From a virus, in IMG/VR virus record IMGVR_UViG_3300027977_000008, positions 62,001 to 126,000 of that record: a DNA stretch of 64,000 nucleotides. The stretch is one strand, 5' to 3'. Position numbers and translations under genes: made by a program. Each line of letters starts with the position of its first letter. The first letter of the stretch is position 1. The notes beneath the pieces are model-generated. The model ran no database searches. It saw only the letters and a list, made by a program, of their open reading frames with translations, and was not told the origin of the DNA. This document shows positions 20,866-62,028 of the stretch, one piece after another.

Positions 20866-21204
20866 ATGAACCCAAGTTCGGCTAAAGCTAAAGGCAGAAG
20901 ATTGCAACAATGGGTTCGTGATCAATTGATTGAGCACCTTGAAGTACATCCTGAAGATATTGAAAGTCGTAGTATGGGTGCTGGTGGAGAAGATCTTATC
21001 ATGGCTCGTGCTGCCAGATCTAAGTTTCCTCATAGTATAGAATGTAAAAATGTCGAGAAGCTAAATATCTGGGATGCTTACTCTCAAGCATGTGCAAATT
21101 GTGGCGAGTATGAGCCCGTTTTGTTTATAAAAAAGAATAACAAAAACCCATTAGTGGTTGTGGATGCAGAGTATTACATAAACTTATTTGGAGATAAAAA
21201 ATGA
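20866..21204 (+). CDS. PD-(D/E)XK endonuclease
   Basis: 112 residues. The core MGAGGEDLIM (Asp43) and SIECKNVEKLN (Glu59, Lys61) give the D...ExK catalytic triad of restriction- and resolvase-like nucleases, with a basic N-terminal helix. Widespread in cyanophages as a putative endonuclease. Given late expression it may resolve branched DNA before packaging, the job of T4 gp49; that role is inference. Its translation appears gated by the upstream hairpin. Confidence 0.8.
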   Translation: MNPSSAKAKGRRLQQWVRDQLIEHLEVHPEDIESRSMGAGGEDLIMARAARSKFPHSIECKNVEKLNIWDAYSQACANCGEYEPVLFIKKNNKNPLVVVDAEYYINLFGDKK

Positions 21205-21896
21205 AAATTGATTTACATAACTTCTTTAAGCATTACGATGAAAAAAATCCTAAGCATGTTGCTGGTGTAGAGCAACTGGAAAAGGATCTAACAGATTCTC
21301 TATTGATTGATGACACCTCAAATTGGGTTAGGATTTATAGAACTAAACCAAGCAAACCAGTAAATCCATCTATTCTTGATGTGCCTTACTATCCACAGAC
21401 AGATAACTATACAAATGCAGAACGCACTTGTAATTCCTCTGCCTGTGCGATGTGTCTTGAGTATTTCAAACCCGGAACTCTTAAAGGAGCACAAGGAGAT
21501 GATGCCTATATTAGAAAAGTATTTGCCATCGGTGATACAACTGACCATTCTGTGCAGACAAAAGTTCTCGCAAGTTATGGAATTCAGTCAAGTTTTAGTT
21601 ATAATCTTTCTTTTGCTGATCTTGATAAAAGTCTTAGTGCTGGCAAACCTGTTGTTATTGGCATCCTACATCGTGGTTCTTTGTCTTATCCTACGGGCGG
21701 CCACATGGTTGTAGTGATTGGTAAGACACAGAGTGGTGACTATGTTGTAAATGATCCTTATGGGTCACTCAATGATGGTTATACGGGTGATGTTTATAAT
21801 GGCAAAGGTGCTATCTATAAGAAATCAGATCTATCTGCTCGCTGGTGTCCTAATGGTAATGACGGATGGGGCAGAATCTTTGATGTAAAAAAGTAG
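21201..21896 (+). CDS. C39-like cysteine peptidase, 0-frame product
   Basis: 231 residues. LDVPYYPQTDN followed by ERTCNSSACAMCLEY is the C39_2-like start (catalytic Cys in TCNSSA); TGGHMVVVIGKT carries the His and VVNDPYGS the Asp. Such domains cut peptides, probably peptidoglycan cross-links. The frame ends at TAG 21894, directly after an A-AAA-AAG slippery heptamer; the GH24 lysozyme lies in the -1 frame. Products would be a 231-aa peptidase and, by frameshift, a 395-aa peptidase-lysozyme. Coupled to the preceding endonuclease by ATGA. Confidence 0.8.
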   Translation: MKIDLHNFFKHYDEKNPKHVAGVEQLEKDLTDSLLIDDTSNWVRIYRTKPSKPVNPSILDVPYYPQTDNYTNAERTCNSSACAMCLEYFKPGTLKGAQGDDAYIRKVFAIGDTTDHSVQTKVLASYGIQSSFSYNLSFADLDKSLSAGKPVVIGILHRGSLSYPTGGHMVVVIGKTQSGDYVVNDPYGSLNDGYTGDVYNGKGAIYKKSDLSARWCPNGNDGWGRIFDVKK

Positions 21897-21948
21897 AAAA
21901 CTCTACTCCTTCTGGAAGCAAGTATGATGTACCTGCAAAAGGAGTAGA
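21887..21948 (+). other. Candidate programmed -1 ribosomal frameshift site
   Basis: A AAA AAG (21887-21893) in the 0-frame phase GTA-AAA-AAG, followed at once by TAG. After a 9-base spacer, CTACTCCTT (21903-21911) pairs perfectly with AAGGAGTAG (21939-21947), plus T-A at 21902/21948; the loop is 27 bases. This matches the E. coli dnaX layout. A -1 slip leads straight into the lysozyme frame (GTA GAA AAC TCT). Confidence 0.7.
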
Positions 21949-22387
21949 TCTTATTAAAGAGTTTGAAGGTTGTCATTTGCAGGCATATCCAGATCCTCTG
22001 TCTGGACATCTTCCGATTACTATTGGTTGGGGAAGCACTAGAGATTTGAATGGAAAACCATTTAAACTGGGTCAAAAGATATCACAAAAAGTTGCTGATG
22101 ATCTTTTGATAAATCAAATTAAAAATGAGTTTCTTCCTACACTTTCAAAAATACCTTATTGGAGTGAGATGACAGATGGAAAACGTGGTGCTCTTCTTAG
22201 TTTTGCTTACAATCTTGGAGCTGGTTTTTATGGATCTGGAAATTTTAGTTCAATCACTGCGAGATTAAAAAATAAAGAATGGGATAAAGTTCCTGATGCT
22301 CTTTATCTTTATCGTAATCCTGGTTCAAATGCAGAAGCAGGTCTGGCACGTAGAAGAAAGGCAGAGGGAAAACTCTGGAATTCTTAA
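21893..22387 (+). CDS. GH24 lysozyme domain, -1 frame of the lysin
   Basis: 164 residues in the -1 frame. IKEFEGCHLQAYPDPLSGHL followed by PITIGWG is the T4-lysozyme-type (GH24) start with catalytic Glu in EFEG; SFAYNLGAG and the Arg-rich end (EAGLARRRKAEGKLW) are family marks. It cuts the sugar backbone of peptidoglycan. The frame is open back to a TGA at about 21879 and has no ATG or GTG before the domain; the first candidate, TTG 21977, would delete the catalytic Glu. Expression therefore needs frameshifting, or the sequence has an indel. Confidence 0.75.
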   Translation, partial: VENSTPSGSKYDVPAKGVDLIKEFEGCHLQAYPDPLSGHLPITIGWGSTRDLNGKPFKLGQKISQKVADDLLINQIKNEFLPTLSKIPYWSEMTDGKRGALLSFAYNLGAGFYGSGNFSSITARLKNKEWDKVPDALYLYRNPGSNAEAGLARRRKAEGKLWNS

Positions 22388-22796
22388 AGGAGCACAAGGA
22401 GATGATGCCTATATTAGAAAAGTATTTGCCATCGGTGATACAACTGACCATTCGGTTCAAACTAATGTGTTGAATTCATATGGGGTTAAATCACACTTTA
22501 GTTACAATCTTTCTTTTGCTGATCTTGATCGTGAAATAGCAAATCAAAGACCAGTAGTGATTGGCATTCTACATCGTGGTTCTTTATCTAATCCTACGGG
22601 CGGCCACATGGTTGTAGTGATTGGTAAGACACAGAGTGGTGACTATGTTGTAAATGATCCTTATGGGTCACTCAATGATGGTTATACGGGTGATGTTTAT
22701 AATGGCAAAGGTGCTGTATATAAGAAGTCTGACTTAACTTATAGATGGTTAGAGAATGGTAAGGATAAGACTGGTTGGGGAAGAATTTTTAAATAA
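22383..22796 (+). pseudogene. Partial second C39 domain copy
   Basis: 138 codons homologous to residues 94-228 of the C39 protein, in a third frame after the lysozyme. It keeps TGGHMVVVIGKT and NDPYGS but lacks the part with the catalytic Cys, and I see no plausible start codon in frame. Two blocks are identical to the first copy at constant offset 903: 21479-21550/22382-22453 and 21688-21812/22591-22715. Between them the copies differ. Probably a duplication remnant or an assembly join of two alleles. Confidence 0.7.
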
Positions 22797-22812
22797 AGTT
22801 TAAAACAGTAAA

Positions 22813-23007
22813 ATGTTACGCGAATGGAATACTCCCTTTAGAGAACCATGGAACCCTGTTATAAAAAAATGCTTAGATGCAATAGATTTGCACACTAAAT
22901 TGTATTTAGAAACTAAAAATTCTTTTCATTTATCTCAATCAAATCTTCTTAGAGAATATATTACCAATTTAAAAAATTGGATTATTGAAAATGAACCAGA
23001 AGGTTGA
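22813..23007 (+). CDS. Small conserved cyanophage protein
   Basis: 64 residues, helical, with REWNTPFREPWNPVIKKCLD near the N-terminus and an acidic/aromatic end (NLKNWIIENEPEG). Similar short proteins occur beside lysis or tRNA regions in cyanophages. No enzyme motif. Starts 16 bases after the C39 remnant. Confidence 0.5.
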   Translation: MLREWNTPFREPWNPVIKKCLDAIDLHTKLYLETKNSFHLSQSNLLREYITNLKNWIIENEPEG

Positions 23008-23017
23008 CATAGAAGTC

Positions 23018-23046
23018 TTGACAAAAGATAAATAATCACTTATAAT
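23018..23046 (+). promoter_or_regulatory. Consensus sigma-70 promoter with late motif in the spacer
   Basis: TTGACA (23018-23023), exactly 17 bases, TATAAT (23041-23046): full consensus. GATAAATA (23027-23034), a late-promoter motif, lies inside the spacer. Drives the structured leader and the tail-lysozyme-like gene. Confidence 0.85.
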
Positions 23047-23053
23047 GAAACAT

Positions 23054-23127
23054 CGCCTTACAGCGGTTACATCATGAGATTTTGATGTGAAAATTAGAGC
23101 CCAGGAGATTGCCCTTTGAAAAAAGGG
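23054..23127 (+). ncRNA. Structured 5' leader of the tail-lysozyme-like gene
   Basis: Three hairpins by eye: CGC/GCG (23054-23065), ACATCA/TGATGT (23069-23088), and CCCTTT-GAAA-AAAGGG (23112-23127). The last includes the purine run just before the GTG start, and its GAAA loop is a GNRA tetraloop. An AGGAG at 23103-23107 could serve a short TTG reading frame (23116-23151). Cis-regulatory function is inferred. Confidence 0.4.
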
Positions 23128-23131
23128 AAGT

Positions 23132-23830
23132 GTGCTTTCTCTATTGGGATGTAGAATTCTATTAAACTTAATGCTACTATCAACAATTGCTACCCTTTCA
23201 GTCTTAACTGCGTTTCAGTCACCACTCTTAATACCAGTGAGTGCTCCACCAGTTCCTGAGAAAGAAAGTTTAGAACTCACAGTTCAAGACTTCTCAAATC
23301 AGAAAGACACCAAATCTGAAAAACTAAACATTACAGAAACGAAGGTCGAAAATAAAGAAAAGATTTGGAAATGTAAAGGGTGTAATCAAACAGAAACTTA
23401 TGCTTTGAGTTACTTACAAAAACAAGGAATCAAAGATAAGAATGCTCTAGCAACAATCATGGGCAATATCAAACAGGAATCAGATTTTGTTCCTAATATC
23501 TGTGAGGGTGGGTCTAGAGTTTCCTACCAAGGATGTGGAAGCGGTGGTTACGGATTAATTCAGTGGACCGATTCTGCAAGATATAATGGTTTAGGAAGAC
23601 ATGCTGCCCGTATGGGTGCCAGTGCTTCCACACTTGACACTCAACTCAACTATATGTTGTATGAGGGTGACTGGAAAATGATTGAACCAAGAATGAAAAC
23701 TCCTGGTAAATCTATTGACCAGTACATGTATTATGCTAGTAAGTGGATTCGTTGGGGACATCATGGAGCAAGAACTGACTTTGCATATAACTATGCAAAG
23801 AAAATGGTTCTTACTGAAGTAGATGCCTAA
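23132..23830 (+). CDS. Secreted or anchored tail-lysozyme-like muralytic protein
   Basis: 232 residues from GTG 23132; ATG 23171 is an alternative. A hydrophobic N-terminal segment (LLNLMLLSTIATLSVLTAF) is a signal or anchor, followed by a charged linker and a domain from about residue 90. There, NALATIMGNIKQESDF has the catalytic Glu of phage-tail-lysozyme-type enzymes and GSGGYGLIQWTDSARY the glycine-rich substrate loop. It likely cuts peptidoglycan from the periplasmic side. A second lysin near the C39/lysozyme locus makes this a lysis module. Confidence 0.7.
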   Translation: MLSLLGCRILLNLMLLSTIATLSVLTAFQSPLLIPVSAPPVPEKESLELTVQDFSNQKDTKSEKLNITETKVENKEKIWKCKGCNQTETYALSYLQKQGIKDKNALATIMGNIKQESDFVPNICEGGSRVSYQGCGSGGYGLIQWTDSARYNGLGRHAARMGASASTLDTQLNYMLYEGDWKMIEPRMKTPGKSIDQYMYYASKWIRWGHHGARTDFAYNYAKKMVLTEVDA

Positions 23831-23834
23831 CTGA

Positions 23835-23862
23835 ATAAATATGGGGGAATATATCTTCCCCC
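23835..23862 (+). promoter_or_regulatory. Late promoter and hairpin
   Basis: ATAAATA (23835-23841) followed by GGGGGAA (23843-23849) pairing with TTCCCCC (23856-23862). The hairpin could end the upstream transcript and lies 3 bases before the GTG start of the next gene. Confidence 0.5.
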
Positions 23863-23865
23863 TTT

Positions 23866-24273
23866 GTGGTTAACTTTAATTTTGGCAAGAAGAAACCAGA
23901 TATAAAACAGTATGCTATCATCGGAGTTGTATTGACAGCAGTGATAGCAACCCTCTCGCAATGCACTAAGATATCTGAAAATAATCTATGGGATATTTTA
24001 GATGAGATACAAAGAAAATATTTTCCTCAAACCATATTGAATGAGTTTATAATCAAAGATGATGAAAAACTTCAGAGAAGAATTGGTAGAGATGTAGATC
24101 GAGCAATAAATGATATAACTCCGGAGTATGATCGTATTATTTCTGATTATGACAGGAAATACAAACCCAGATACAGCGAAAAACCGGTTGACGAAAATGT
24201 GTGCTATACTAAAGACTGTAAGGCATTGGGAGGTGAGATTAGACTAACTGCTCCATGGTACGTGTCTCAGTAA
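23866..24273 (+). CDS. Membrane-anchored protein, unknown
   Basis: 135 residues from GTG 23866. A short basic N-terminus (FGKKKPDIKQY) precedes a transmembrane segment (AIIGVVLTAVIATLSQC) and a charged, probably coiled periplasmic domain with two Cys (NVCYTKDCK). Its last 10 bases overlap tRNA-Arg. A fragment of a related gene is found at 50198. A spanin-like layout is conceivable next to lysis genes but no family was recognised. Confidence 0.5.
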   Translation: MVNFNFGKKKPDIKQYAIIGVVLTAVIATLSQCTKISENNLWDILDEIQRKYFPQTILNEFIIKDDEKLQRRIGRDVDRAINDITPEYDRIISDYDRKYKPRYSEKPVDENVCYTKDCKALGGEIRLTAPWYVSQ

Positions 24274-24337
24274 CTCAGTGGACTAGAGTAACGCTCTTCT
24301 AAAGCGTGAGTCGTAGGTTCGAATCCTACCTGAGACG
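24264..24337 (+). tRNA. tRNA-Arg (anticodon TCT)
   Basis: Acceptor GTCTCAG (24264-24270) pairs with CTGAGAC (24330-24336); anticodon stem ACGCT/AGCGT with loop CTTCTAA gives TCT; T-arm GTAGG-TTCGAAT-CCTAC. CCA is not encoded. Its 5' end overlaps the stop region of the preceding gene. Confidence 0.93.
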
Positions 24338-24396
24338 TTCCTTTACTAAGGAAAATTATATCAGTACTATACCACCCAGTTGCTATTGTAACTCAG

Positions 24397-24921
24397 ATGG
24401 ATATTTTAGAAATCCAAATGAAACTTATAAAGAACTCCCTTAGAAAAGAATTGATTTCATTATGCAACGATGAAATAGATAAGTTGCTTCCTAGTCGTGC
24501 ATGGTCCATTAATCAAACCACATGGAATAAAGAATTACTTGGAGATGATTTTCATGGAGTTTGTCTTTCTGCTGATGTTTCTTCCTTTACAGAAAGAAAA
24601 ATAAAAACTGAATTGTTGAAGTTGCTTCCAGAAGCAGACAAAATTACCATGAATTATAATGTGTTTCTTAAAAATTCTGGCATCCGATGGCATAGTGATG
24701 CTAATTATAAATTTGGTGCAACATTATATTTGAATGAATGGAATAATAAGTGGGGTGGATTATTTCTATGGGAAGACAAAGAGGAAAACTTACACGTTAT
24801 TTGTCCTGAACCAGGCACATTAGTAATAAATACAGAAGAAGAAAACCATTCTATAACTCATTTGTCTTCTATTGCACCATATCCAAGAAGGTCTTTACAG
24901 ATTTGGGGAACCATGCTATAA
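24397..24921 (+). CDS. 2OG-Fe(II) oxygenase
   Basis: 174 residues. GIRWHSDANYKFGATLYLN has the H-x-D iron ligands; GGLFLWEDKE is the next strand; EEENHSITHLSSI has the distal His and RRSLQIW the 2OG-binding Arg. This is a prolyl-hydroxylase-like oxygenase of the kind that cyanophages carry in several copies. Substrate unknown. It sits between tRNA-Arg and the Leu/Gly tRNAs. Confidence 0.75.
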   Translation: MDILEIQMKLIKNSLRKELISLCNDEIDKLLPSRAWSINQTTWNKELLGDDFHGVCLSADVSSFTERKIKTELLKLLPEADKITMNYNVFLKNSGIRWHSDANYKFGATLYLNEWNNKWGGLFLWEDKEENLHVICPEPGTLVINTEEENHSITHLSSIAPYPRRSLQIWGTML

Positions 24922-24922
24922 T
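24894..24922 (+). promoter_or_regulatory. Sigma-70 promoter for tRNA-Leu/Gly
   Basis: TTTACA (24894-24899), 17 bases, TATAAT (24917-24922) with a TG extended -10. It lies over the 3' end of the oxygenase gene, 55 bases before tRNA-Leu. Confidence 0.65.
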
Positions 24923-24976
24923 GTTCAAGTGTGAAGGAAGTGCAACAGGCATGAGAAATTTGTAAGTCCCTTTTTT

Positions 24977-25056
24977 GTCGGTGTGGCGGAATGGTAGACG
25001 CGCTGGGTTTAGGTTCCAGTGACTAGTTCGTGGAGGTTCAAGTCCTCTCACCGACA
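24977..25056 (+). tRNA. tRNA-Leu (anticodon TAG)
   Basis: Acceptor GTCGGTG (24977-24983) pairs with CACCGAC (25049-25055); anticodon stem CTGGG/TCCAG, loop TTTAGGT gives TAG; a longer variable arm as expected for Leu; T-arm GAGG-TTCAAGT-CCTC. Confidence 0.93.
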
Positions 25057-25059
25057 TTT

Positions 25060-25131
25060 GCGAAATTAATTCAGCGGTAGAATGTCTGCCTTCCAAGCAG
25101 AACGTCAGGAGTTCAAATCTCCTATTTCGCT
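25060..25131 (+). tRNA. tRNA-Gly (anticodon TCC)
   Basis: Acceptor GCGAAAT (25060-25066) pairs with ATTTCGC (25124-25130); anticodon stem TCTGC/GCAGA with loop CTTCCAA gives TCC; T-arm AGGAG-TTCAAAT-CTCCT. Three bases after tRNA-Leu. Confidence 0.93.
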
Positions 25132-25156
25132 TGCCCAAAAAATTGGGCACTAAATA
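25132..25156 (+). promoter_or_regulatory. Stem-loop followed by late promoter
   Basis: TGCCCAA (25132-25138) pairs with TTGGGCA (25143-25149); CTAAATA follows at 25150-25156. The hairpin borders the tRNA block and the late promoter serves the SLH porin-like gene at 25190. Confidence 0.6.
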
Positions 25157-25189
25157 AATCTTGTATTTGTAATTTTTTAATACATTCTT

Positions 25190-26065
25190 ATGAAAATCAA
25201 ATCTATTGTTGCTAGTGCAGTTGCTGTTTCTGCAATGACTGTTCCTGCATTTGCTGGACAATTCTCTGATGTTTCCCCCACTAACTGGGCATATCAGGCA
25301 ATTACCAATCTAAATGCTCGTTACGGTTGTCTTGTTGGATATCCTAATGGTACTTTAAAGCCTGCTCAGGATGCTACTCGTGCTGAGCTGGCTGCTCTGA
25401 CGAATGCTTGCCTGGATCGCATTTCCGAGTTCTCCAGTGCTGAAGATGCCCGCACTGCTGCTGCTCTTCGTGCTGAGTTCTCTAAGCAACTTGCTGCTAC
25501 TAATGTTCGTGTAAGGACTCTTGAAGTTGCTGCCGCTCGTAAGGCACAAGGAGTTGGTCAGTATGTTGGTGTTGGTGTTCTTGTAAATAAGCAAGGTACT
25601 GATGGTAATGGTTATGGTGCTAACCGAACTGTTTCTGGTGCTACTGTTCAAGCGCGTTTCCCTGTGGCGACTGTTTGGAGTAATGATGTTTCAGTTCGTC
25701 CTTATGCTAACTTTGTCGGTAGTCCTGCTGGACAGATTGGTGCTGCTGGTGGAGCACTTGCTACTTATGATTACTCCATCTCACGCAAGACTCTTGCTAA
25801 TGGAACTAAAGTAAGTCGTGCAAATGTTTATGGTGGTGTTGGTTATCAAGTTCCTTTCGTAAACAATACTTCTTCTAACTATCAGTCTGCTGTTGGTTCA
25901 CAGGGTCAAGTTGTGTTTGCTCTGGGTGTTGAAAGTCGCATTACAGATTCTCTGGTTGGTTTTGCTGATGTTAAGTTTCCCACTACCAATGCTACCAATA
26001 GCTATGGTGGTTCCAATGGAACTTATAGTCCAGTATTTACAACTGGTCTAGGTATCAAGTTCTGA
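25190..26065 (+). CDS. SLH-domain porin-like outer-membrane protein
   Basis: 291 residues. A signal peptide (MKIKSIVASAVAVSAMTVPA, then FAG) leads into an SLH domain (FSDVSPTNWAYQAITNL through YPNGTLKPAQDATRAELAAL, residues 25-70), an Ala-rich coiled coil, and a Gly/aromatic beta-strand region ending in GLGIKF, a typical terminal beta-strand with C-terminal Phe. This is the plan of cyanobacterial SomA-type porins but much shorter (usually 450-550). Codons in the first part are more GC-rich than neighbours, suggesting host origin. Late promoter upstream, terminator downstream. Confidence 0.8.
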   Translation: MKIKSIVASAVAVSAMTVPAFAGQFSDVSPTNWAYQAITNLNARYGCLVGYPNGTLKPAQDATRAELAALTNACLDRISEFSSAEDARTAAALRAEFSKQLAATNVRVRTLEVAAARKAQGVGQYVGVGVLVNKQGTDGNGYGANRTVSGATVQARFPVATVWSNDVSVRPYANFVGSPAGQIGAAGGALATYDYSISRKTLANGTKVSRANVYGGVGYQVPFVNNTSSNYQSAVGSQGQVVFALGVESRITDSLVGFADVKFPTTNATNSYGGSNGTYSPVFTTGLGIKF

Positions 26066-26088
26066 TAAACTACTCATAGGTTGAGTTA

Positions 26089-26111
26089 GATCACTCATTT
26101 TTTGAGTGGTC
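26089..26111 (+). terminator. Terminator after the SLH gene
   Basis: GATCACTCA (26089-26097) pairs with TGAGTGGTC (26103-26111), one G-U, T-rich loop, followed by TTT. The next 80 bases to tRNA-Asn hold one 5-bp hairpin ACTGG/CCAGT with a 7-base loop near 26164-26180 and nothing else I can name. Confidence 0.65.
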
Positions 26112-26192
26112 TTTGAAAGGAAGTTAAGTCAAAGAATCAAGACAAGCAGATAATGCCCTCGTAACTGGTGTAAGTCCAGTAACTTTCTTTAT

Positions 26193-26264
26193 TCCACAAT
26201 AGCTCAGCGGTAGAGTCGGTGACTGTTAATCACTTTGTCCCTGGTTCGAATCCAGGTTGTGGAG
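26193..26264 (+). tRNA. tRNA-Asn (anticodon GTT)
   Basis: Acceptor TCCACAA (26193-26199) pairs with TTGTGGA (26257-26263); anticodon stem GGTGA/TCACT with loop CTGTTAA gives GTT; T-arm CCTGG-TTCGAAT-CCAGG. Confidence 0.93.
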
Positions 26265-26267
26265 CTT

Positions 26268-26339
26268 GGGCGATTAACTCAGCGGTAGAGTGCCTCGTTT
26301 ACACCGAGTATGTAGGCGGTTCAATCCCGTCATCGCCCA
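26268..26339 (+). tRNA. tRNA-Val (anticodon TAC)
   Basis: Acceptor GGGCGAT (26268-26274) pairs with ATCGCCC (26332-26338); anticodon stem CCTCG/CGAGT with loop TTTACAC gives TAC; T-arm GGCGG-TTCAATC-CCGTC. Confidence 0.92.
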
Positions 26340-26347
26340 TATAAATA
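26340..26347 (+). promoter_or_regulatory. Consensus late promoter after tRNA-Val
   Basis: Exact TATAAATA starting one base after tRNA-Val, 31 bases before ATG 26379. Confidence 0.65.
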
Positions 26348-26378
26348 AATAAAATTGGTGTATAAGCATTAGTAATAA

Positions 26379-26891
26379 ATGAAAAATTTTGCTGAGTTTA
26401 TGCTAGAATGTCAGTGTATTCAAGAGACTTCACTCAATCGTGTAAAATCTAAATCAGACAAAGGTGGCATGGCAATCATGTCTGCCGAAAGAGGTGATAA
26501 GTCTAAGTCTCAAAACAAAGCACGATCCAAGCAATTAACAAAAGACATTCGTGGTGCTGGTCTTCCTGGTCCAACAAAAGTAAAAGGAAGATATACAGAA
26601 AATCCTGGCACTAAAGATGAGAAAAAAGTTTCTGAAAAGTCTTATGTAATTTCATCTGGAAAGAAAAGTAAAAAAAAGTTTAAAAAGGCAGTTGCTAAAC
26701 TTGGTGCTAAGTATGATCAAGATTCCGTTTTAGTTCAAAAAAAAGGAAAGGGTGGTGCAAGTCTTACTGGAACTTCTAAAACATCTTGGCCAGGGAAAGG
26801 AAAAAATGTTAAGGTTGGCAAAATGAAACCTGGACGTACTGGTGAATTTGACACTAAAGTGAAAAACAAAACATTTACTTATGAAAACTAA
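26379..26891 (+). CDS. Basic protein with capsid-targeting-like N-terminus
   Basis: 170 residues, about a quarter Lys/Arg. It begins MKNFAEFMLECQCIQETSLN, close to T4 internal-protein targeting peptides; IQE-T is a possible prohead-protease cut. The rest is Lys/Gly/Ser-rich (GKKSKKKFKKAVAKLGAKYD), suited to binding packaged DNA. Perfect late promoter upstream. Internal head protein is the best guess. Confidence 0.5.
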   Translation: MKNFAEFMLECQCIQETSLNRVKSKSDKGGMAIMSAERGDKSKSQNKARSKQLTKDIRGAGLPGPTKVKGRYTENPGTKDEKKVSEKSYVISSGKKSKKKFKKAVAKLGAKYDQDSVLVQKKGKGGASLTGTSKTSWPGKGKNVKVGKMKPGRTGEFDTKVKNKTFTYEN

Positions 26892-27087
26892 ATTTCCTCT
26901 TCCACATGTAGTGGACACTAATGAAAAAACTGTATGGGTACTTTGTGATAGTGCCATTACTACAATGGGTATTGGTAGTATTGTAAAAAAATTCTATCCT
27001 GGATATACTCTTAAAATTGCAAGTAAAGAATATTTTAAAACCTTAAATGAATTTAAACACACTGACAATACGTTGCAAAACTTGTAA
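26881..27087 (+). CDS. Small conserved cyanophage protein
   Basis: 68 residues; LPHVVDTNEKTVWVLCDSAI is the recognisable conserved block, with ITTMGIGSIVKKFYPGYTLK after it. Overlaps both neighbours. Function unknown. Confidence 0.5.
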   Translation: MKTKFPLPHVVDTNEKTVWVLCDSAITTMGIGSIVKKFYPGYTLKIASKEYFKTLNEFKHTDNTLQNL

Positions 27088-27307
27088 CAAGGAGTTAACA
27101 AACTCCTCAAAATGGATCGTTTGTGGATGTCCAAATCAAGCAACAATTTATAATGATAAAATTTCTGCAGTAGATCTTTCGCAGATTGTTATCATAGAAG
27201 GGTTGACAAAGAAAAAAAATTCTGGTATACTGAGTCAAGATGACCTCGCTTTTCAAGAGGCAAAACGTCAACGAAAAGTTAAAAAACTTGAATTTGAAAT
27301 TCGTTAA
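27047..27307 (+). CDS. Small zinc-ribbon-like protein
   Basis: 86 residues. IRCKTCNKEL and IVCGCPNQATI provide two Cys pairs (C-x2-C, C-x-C) that could bind zinc; NDKISAVDLSQIVII follows. Similar short proteins are frequent in cyanophages. A consensus sigma-70 promoter lies inside its 3' third. Role unknown. Confidence 0.55.
   Translation: MNLNTLTIRCKTCNKELTNSSKWIVCGCPNQATIYNDKISAVDLSQIVIIEGLTKKKNSGILSQDDLAFQEAKRQRKVKKLEFEIR
27203..27231 (+). promoter_or_regulatory. Sigma-70 promoter inside the preceding gene
   Basis: TTGACA (27203-27208), 17 bases, TATACT (27226-27231). It could drive the 27307 gene, the HNH remnant and tRNA-Pro. Confidence 0.6.
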
Positions 27308-27438
27308 TGTGGAAACTTTGGTGTAAAGCATTAGGTGAAAAATCTTCTGATAACAATCATGAAGCAGATCGCATAGCAATTATTCGTACCATAATCTTTC
27401 TGAAATTGCAAGATTTAGATCTTGGAAGAATGTTCTAA
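27307..27438 (+). CDS. Truncated small protein, MWKLW family
   Basis: 43 residues starting on the previous stop (TAATG). The N-terminal half MWKLWCKALGEKSSDNNHEA, then DRIAIIRT, looks like a small cyanophage family that normally continues into a hydrophobic segment. After RTIIF the sequence becomes that of a different gene read in another frame (HNH remnant), so the C-terminus is probably lost. Confidence 0.5.
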   Translation: MWKLWCKALGEKSSDNNHEADRIAIIRTIIFLKLQDLDLGRMF

Positions 27439-27503
27439 AAGAACTTAGTAAATGCGAAGTCTTATGTTCTAACTGTCATAGAATAGAACACTTCAAAGAA
27501 TAA
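27393..27503 (+). pseudogene. C-terminal remnant of an HNH endonuclease
   Basis: 37 codons reading NLSEIARFRSWKNVLKELSK, then CEVLCSNCHRIEHFKE. The ending KCEVLCSNCHR is typical of HNH homing endonucleases, but the DNA-binding part and the first HNH half are missing. It ends directly at tRNA-Pro. Confidence 0.6.
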
Positions 27504-27579
27504 CCGAACGTCGCCTAACTTGGTCATGGCACCGCTTTTGGGAAGCGGAATAATCTGAGTTCAAATCTCAGCGTTCGGA
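27504..27579 (+). tRNA. tRNA-Pro (anticodon TGG)
   Basis: Acceptor CCGAACG (27504-27510) pairs with CGTTCGG (27572-27578); anticodon stem CCGCT/AGCGG with loop TTTGGGA gives TGG; T-arm CTGAG-TTCAAAT-CTCAG. It starts on the base after the HNH-remnant stop. Confidence 0.92.
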
Positions 27580-27582
27580 CTC

Positions 27583-61703: not shown

Positions 61704-62028
61704 GTTTTTTCAGTCTGAGATTATCCGTGAAGAGATGGAAGACATCTTTAGAATTCAAAAAGAATTATATGAAGTTATTATTCAGTTTAGTTCGTTTAGT
61801 GATAAAGAAAAGAATGAACACATTGAAAAACTAAAGACACTTTTAGATAAACAAGAAATCATGTGGACAAGACTTTCATTGTCCGATGATCGGGAAGCAT
61901 TAGAAATGAAAGAAAAAATCAAGATAACATCAGCAGCAATGGGGTTTAAAGATGTTGATATGTCAATCATCTTCAATAACATGAGAAGAACCTTGGAAGG
62001 TTTACAAAAACGCCTTGACACACCCTAA
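61696..62028 (+). CDS. DUF1825-like protein
   Basis: 110 residues from ATG 61696 (GGAGA upstream). FFQSEIIREEMEDIFRIQKE, DKQEIMWTRLSLSDD and MSIIFNNMRRTLEGLQ match DUF1825, a helical cyanobacterial protein common in cyanophages between gp59 and gp32. Function unknown. Confidence 0.75.
   Translation: MGKFFQSEIIREEMEDIFRIQKELYEVIIQFSSFSDKEKNEHIEKLKTLLDKQEIMWTRLSLSDDREALEMKEKIKITSAAMGFKDVDMSIIFNNMRRTLEGLQKRLDTP

Follow-up and report, generated by a model that had tools for sequence, protein, structure and literature searches.

A programmed −1 ribosomal frameshift of the dnaX type very probably operates at the junction between a C39-type peptidase gene and a GH24 lysozyme reading frame in the viral DNA analysed here, a window of 64,000 nucleotides (positions 62,001–126,000 of the IMG/VR record IMGVR_UViG_3300027977_000008). 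In the proposed mechanism, ribosomes on the peptidase gene would reach the heptamer A_AAA_AAG with tRNA-Lys(UUU) in both the P and A sites and would be held by a hairpin located 8 nt downstream, with a fraction of them re-pairing one base back. The shifted ribosomes would continue through VENSTPSG… into the GH24 lysozyme and the unshifted ones would terminate at the adjoining TAG, so that a partial slip next to a stop codon would make two products from one gene: a protein consisting of an N-terminal module and the C39 peptidase (231 aa), and a bifunctional lysin composed of the N-terminal module, C39 and GH24 (395 aa). Comparison with related loci strongly supports the conservation of this putative dnaX-type signal at the lysin gene of Kyanoviridae and of related environmental contigs, and, as judged by the same comparison, some ribosomes probably change frame in many related cyanobacterial viruses, yielding both the peptidase and a longer, lysozyme-bearing enzyme. 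The ribosomal slippage, its efficiency and the role of both proteins in host lysis are what we infer from these sequences.

The elements of the junction are collected in Table 1. The peptidase gene ends in GTA AAA AAG TAG, and the heptamer, its phase in the peptidase frame and the TAG directly after it are all present in the sequence as originally predicted. The first post-slip codon would be GTA (21893–21895), the V with which the −1 reading VENSTPSG begins; the lysozyme frame is open from 21884 and closes with a TAA at 22385–22387. The product of the slip would therefore comprise 231 + 164 = 395 residues, and the frames agree with the lengths first predicted for the peptidase and for the bifunctional enzyme. 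The 27-nt loop also stands as described, while the stem, given as 9 bp extendable to 10 and starting nine bases on, is a helix of 10 bp preceded by a spacer of 8 nt (−16.2 kcal/mol with an inner helix). Finally, the −1 frame was said to have neither ATG nor GTG before the catalytic Glu of the lysozyme; this is correct, and TTG is absent from that region of the window too, the earliest listed start in the lysozyme frame being a TTG at 21977, 3′ of the catalytic Glu.

Table 1. Features of the predicted frameshift junction (window coordinates), and annotations of the lysozyme in related records (coordinates of each locus)
Feature	Positions	Strand	Product or basis
C39-type peptidase ORF	21201..21896	+	231 aa, zero-frame product
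Putative slippery heptamer A_AAA_AAG, peptidase phase	21887..21893	+	sequence inspection
Zero-frame TAG stop abutting the heptamer	21894..21896	+	sequence inspection
Predicted stem, 5′ arm, 10 bp	21902..21911	+	fold; swap and covariation tests on relatives
Predicted stem, 3′ arm, codes lysozyme-domain start KGVD	21939..21948	+	fold; pairing register I
GH24 lysozyme extension, −1 frame, 164 aa + stop	21893..22387	+	PF00959; dN < dS
Truncated-lysin or hypothetical-protein annotations	L001 4277-4495; L008 3211-3483; L381 and L382 1765-1983		

Taken alone, the window locus is suggestive, and it is the relatives that provide the decisive evidence. The motif AAAAAAG occurs 50 times in the window on the two strands, twice with an adjoining stop, and a helix as strong as that of the junction is found at just one of these 50 sites, the junction itself; the helix score is matched at 22 of 2556 evenly spaced plus-strand positions of the window. 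A plain 91-nt fold at the locus gives z = −1.59, with 18 of 200 shuffles equally stable, and we rejected this single-locus z-score as proof because it is too weak. When the 91 nt are folded as naked RNA, the minimum-energy structure has a competing 6-bp hairpin across the stop in place of the stem; the stem is present in the minimum-energy fold of the RNA 3′ of the heptamer.

Both halves of the predicted fusion are recognisable enzymes. The peptidase part matches PF13529 (Peptidase_C39_2; E 2.4e-15, residues 59–187) and is preceded by an N-terminal module (21201 to about 21350), the Pfam match starting only at residue 59. C77, H168 and D185 are invariant in the C39 alignments and would be the catalytic residues. 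The C39 part is predicted to adopt a papain-like fold, with a mean pLDDT of 79 and a best Foldseek E of 1.8e-5, and the C39 profile found no sequence relative in the PDB at E ≤ 0.1. The lysozyme part matches PF00959 (Phage_lysozyme, GH24; E 3.7e-21) and has the Glu/Asp/Thr pattern, which, by comparison with T4 lysozyme, we take to be catalytic. In the −1 lysozyme frame dN is lower than dS against all eight relatives compared, a sign of purifying selection, and the same is true of the C39 part. Furthermore, the window protein matches phrog_3617 (E 1.1e-97), a family of 405 positions that spans C39 and then GH24; PHROG 3617 covers both parts in this order, and the two are therefore one protein elsewhere.

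Several other features lie downstream in the window. A second, partial C39 copy is found after the lysozyme (22377–22796; spacing 903 nt) and also in contig L089; it is 84–93% identical in DNA over the matched blocks and matches only positions 60–143 of PF13529, and the presumed catalytic Cys region is therefore missing from it. A further lysozyme-type gene, with a match to Phage_lysozyme2 (PF18013, phage tail lysozyme), occupies 23132–23830, and between two of the tRNA genes of the window sits an ORF (25190–26065) that, by eye, we take to resemble a cyanobacterial S-layer-homology porin.

The comparison with relatives drew on at least 385 records, window included, which yielded 284 pairs of C39 followed by GH24, 144 distinct junctions and, at 95% nucleotide identity, 120 clusters; loci without a C39–GH24 pair were left out. 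The relatives are the best 80 loci per query, ranked by similarity, and the proportions of the groups are therefore not population estimates. Among the matches listed, the 120 clusters divide into 88 with a heptamer and without an overlapping start (hereafter frameshift-type), 11 start-coupled (the peptidase stop and a start overlap), 11 with separate genes (a gap of over 60 nt) and 10 in-frame fusions. Because two of the scans selected on the A-run motif, with the A-run matches being those among the matches listed, heptamer statistics use the 84 clusters that also came from other searches: 52 frameshift-type (the cluster of the window included), 11 start-coupled, 11 separate and 10 in-frame fusions. 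The heptamer is A_AAA_AAG in 50 of the 52 and T_TTT_TTT, the S-CAM7 type, in the remaining two, and in 46 of the 52 a stop follows it directly. Given the codon use of these genes, synonymous choices would make the heptamer by chance in about 0.07 of V/A-K-K endings. No cluster was found in which the domains lie within 60 nt of each other without a heptamer, an overlapping start or an in-frame fusion.

These relatives indicate that the stem is conserved as a structure downstream of the heptamer. It exceeds dinucleotide shuffles at p ≤ 0.05 in 81 of the 88 frameshift-type clusters as compared to one of the 11 start-coupled ones, beats all 100 dinucleotide shuffles in 57 and none, respectively, and beats every control window of its own gene in 68 and, again, none. 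Folding of 60 nt against mononucleotide shuffles separates the groups in the same way, with a median z of −3.6 for the frameshift type versus −0.09 for the start-coupled clusters and z below −2 in 74/88 versus 1/11. Seven of the 88 frameshift-type stems are not above shuffles at the 0.05 level, most clearly those of L084 and L030, and the stems of L275, L321 and L106 are weak. Weak cases aside, stems in the clusters have 7–17 bp and loops of 4–44 nt, and the spacer of the relatives extends over 3–9 nt after the heptamer. The alignment of relatives proposed as a check of the original prediction thus bears it out: many divergent phages have retained the heptamer in its phase, the stop close by, the spacer and the stem while their frames remain split.

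The two arms of the stem also match each other within each cluster. When 3′ arms were swapped between clusters, none of 5000 permutations reached the observed pairing sum (87 of the 88 clusters; L272 was left out as it has no anchor). Relative to the heptamer and the domain start, the stems fall into three pairing registers, I–III, with 25, 34 and 23 clusters; the five clusters with other registers are L008 and L176 (both S-CAM7 type), L236, L275 and L330. Cells changed on both sides of a pair number 20, 16 and 9 in registers I–III as compared to shuffle means of 7.8, 4.3 and 4.5, counts that none of 500 shuffles attains in registers I and II and one attains in register III, and the number of pairs with both-side changes is attained by 12, 1 and 12 of 500; these covariation shuffles take no account of relatedness between clusters. 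The signal is not uniform: the extra pair types of register I are not above shuffles (461 of 500 are as high), and sliding register III by +3 gives 11 both-side cells versus the real 9, although with 43% pairing versus 88.5%. A selection of 17 rows from register II, 16 of them distinct, shows pairing in 99.0% of cells, as compared to 30–44% when slid, and three pairs changed on both sides.

An upstream stimulator is a different matter. The dnaX signal has a Shine-Dalgarno element upstream, and at about its position the window has a Shine-Dalgarno-like GGGG upstream of the heptamer. This GGGG does not demonstrate a stimulator because it is coded by a conserved Trp-Gly; across the frameshift-type clusters the anti-Shine-Dalgarno duplex has a median of −6.1 kcal/mol and lies 11 nt upstream in 52 of 88, under the same Trp-Gly coding constraint. 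We therefore rejected the upstream Shine-Dalgarno as frameshift evidence. The likeness to dnaX that was originally predicted holds for heptamer, phase, spacer and stem; the coding-constrained GGGG speaks neither for nor against an upstream element.

The split frames recur in named isolates. In S-PM2 (two GenBank genomes and an IMG/VR copy) the junction reads GCA AAA AAG TAA and in S-CAM7 (three isolates and two contigs) GTT TTT TTT CCA CAG TAG, in both with the lysozyme in the −1 frame; the split is kept in the eight S-PM2 and S-CAM7 records and contigs compared. In these records the lysozyme appears as a truncated lysin or a hypothetical protein with its start inside the domain (Table 1), presumably because the frameshift went unrecognised. 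Relatives of other kinds exist as well. In-frame fusions with A7 are found in L170, L171, L173 and L174 (near relatives that form one cluster) and in L082; the near relatives still keep the stem, and slippage in them could act the other way round, ending some translation early while most of the product is fused. ACG-2014f-like phages encode C39 and GH24 in a single open frame, and the existence of these fusions, together with those through A7, means that the free peptidase is not indispensable. S-SRM01 belongs to the 11 start-coupled clusters, in which an ATG or GTG overlaps the peptidase stop. The original prediction had listed an A7 fusion and a start codon before the lysozyme domain as findings that would speak against it; relatives of both types do occur, but as distinct lineages.

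Could something other than ribosomal frameshifting join the two frames? Transcriptional slippage, in which RNA polymerase would insert an extra A at the A6 run of some transcripts and so bring the lysozyme into frame, is very unlikely. A homopolymer run is present (T8 in S-CAM7), and the relatives with A7 in their DNA are in-frame fusions. However, of the 50 A-type clusters retrieved independently of the heptamer pattern, 49 have a run of precisely six A and then G, shorter than the runs usual in polymerase slippage, and the conserved downstream stem and the stop near the slip site are typical marks of slippage by the ribosome rather than by the polymerase.

Still less probable, in our judgement, is that ribosomes reinitiate, or initiate internally, past the peptidase stop and make the lysozyme separately, without any fusion. 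That route exists in the family, as the 11 start-coupled clusters attest, and in 19 of the 88 frameshift-type clusters the lysozyme frame contains an ATG or GTG ahead of the catalytic Glu (3 ATG, 16 GTG; four of the 19 through a GTG formed from the G of the heptamer and a TGA stop). The other 69 have neither: 23 have only TTG, and 46 are startless like the window, with the number of clusters free of ATG, GTG and TTG rising to 50 of 88 if the heptamer-G GTG is discounted. An ATGA overlap was found in none of the 88, and the stem rises above shuffles almost throughout the frameshift type but in a single start-coupled cluster. A start codon simply missed at the lysozyme was rejected, since there is none in the window and none in the 46 startless clusters.

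Least credible of all is that an in-frame fusion gene lost one base or was misassembled and so shows a non-functional split, a one-base indel having been the main alternative in the original prediction: near relatives do have A7 in frame, and the partial peptidase copy nearby could trouble local assembly, but a lone indel or misassembly is rejected for the family on comparative data, as the split recurs in 88 clusters, among them dozens of contigs, and in two S-PM2 GenBank genomes and three S-CAM7 isolates, the stem covaries, and a second UViG contig (L089), differing from window positions 21686–25384 by one base and assembled from reads that may overlap with those of the window, also has A6.

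Programmed ribosomal frameshifting at A_AAA_AAG has been linked to a lone tRNA-Lys that serves both AAA and AAG, as set out in an excerpt of PMC5009743. The psbA gene of the phage is closest, among the best 80 loci, to those of Synechococcus RCC307 and Cyanobium. All 41 tRNA matches of Synechococcus RCC307 were typed individually and include one tRNA-Lys, with anticodon UUU, so a single tRNA-Lys(UUU) is found in this strain; the phage's own host may differ. The phage record itself (171,943 bases, window included) has eight tRNA genes, those for Arg, Leu, Gly, Asn, Val and Pro in the window (24263–27580) and those for Ile and Leu outside it, and no tRNA-Lys gene was found in the whole record.

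The predicted frameshift may also have consequences for how the N-terminal module is used. The module, DLHNFFK...YDEKNPNH, heads the peptidase, and a copy also heads the separate lysozyme gene in all 11 separate-gene clusters. The lysozyme gene of DSL-LC03 likewise starts with its own copy, the two module copies there being 56% identical across 61 aa, with E 1e-23 for this single pair, and S-CREM1 has the order lysozyme–module–C39 in one ORF. More broadly, the DLHNFFK module of about 45 aa (L004 2794-3462 and separate-type loci) is found in cyanophage C39 and GH24 enzymes in varying orders. Frameshifting may allow a single module and a single peptidase to be shared by the two products, whereas other phages would have duplicated the module. 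In 10 of the 11 start-coupled clusters the lysozyme has only about 9–12 residues before EFEG, which counts against a strict need for the module.

A quick tree of 113 C39 proteins, with eight truncated proteins left out, gives some indication of how these arrangements interchange. The frameshift type needs 11 changes on it, three of them forced by well-supported branches, and the start-coupled type needs six, one of them forced. Of the A7 fusions, L093 sits within the frameshift types beside the window, and L082 branches alone. The S-CAM7 type falls within a clade with SH-aLRT support of at least 95 whose other members are in-frame fusions. This placement suggests that frameshifting arose a second time, with another heptamer, although the branch order within the clade is weak and a single origin followed by losses may also account for it. 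A broader reading, to which we would give somewhat less than an even chance, is that the ratio of free peptidase to bifunctional lysin is under selection, and that frameshifting evolved at least twice, with A_AAA_AAG (in three or more registers) and with U_UUU_UUU (S-CAM7, nested in a fused clade), interchanging with one-base fusion, start coupling and duplication of the N-terminal module.

The E. coli dnaX frameshift gives the shorter product. The cyanophage shift differs in that it would lead to the longer one, and its shift site is followed at once by the stop. The resemblance to dnaX (tau/gamma), as described in PMC5009743, lies in A_AAA_AAG, a downstream stem-loop, products sharing their N-terminus and one tRNA-Lys(UUU). 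The same review mentions a stop abutting the shift site for dnaX candidates such as that of Chlorobium, and treats the lambda G/GT tail-assembly chaperone, likewise a −1 shift in a tailed phage giving a C-terminally extended product (PMC5009743), although gene and purpose are different: here a second catalytic domain would be appended to a cell-wall enzyme. The PHROG 3617 fusion of ACG-2014f-type cyanophages has the same N-terminal module, C39 and GH24 in the same order, but in a single open frame, with no frameshift and no free peptidase predicted.

Lysins are counted among the genes known to contain a frameshift in the PRFect paper (PMC10885494), and frameshifting in lysins as such therefore has precedent. 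The reference behind this in that paper is apparently a 1994 report which, going by its title, concerns a lactococcal phage lysin with overlapping genes, in a different phage group. The two documented frameshifts of SPP1 concern tail genes, according to an excerpt of PMC6316719. Full-text literature searches, judged mostly by titles and the starts of abstracts, returned no report of frameshifting in a cyanophage lysin, in line with the claim first made for this locus. The type of signal is thus known (dnaX-like), and its use on a cyanophage lysin is apparently unreported in the literature so searched.

If the frameshift is confirmed, the lysozymes of S-PM2, S-CAM7 and other annotated cyanophages would prove to be mis-annotated as a truncated 'lysin' or a hypothetical protein, and a cell-wall enzyme would join the phage genes under programmed frameshifting. 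S-PM2 in Synechococcus WH7803 offers a laboratory pair for testing, and the natural variants (frameshift, A7 fusion, start-coupled and separate) form a comparative set for asking why the ratio of lytic activities would be tuned.
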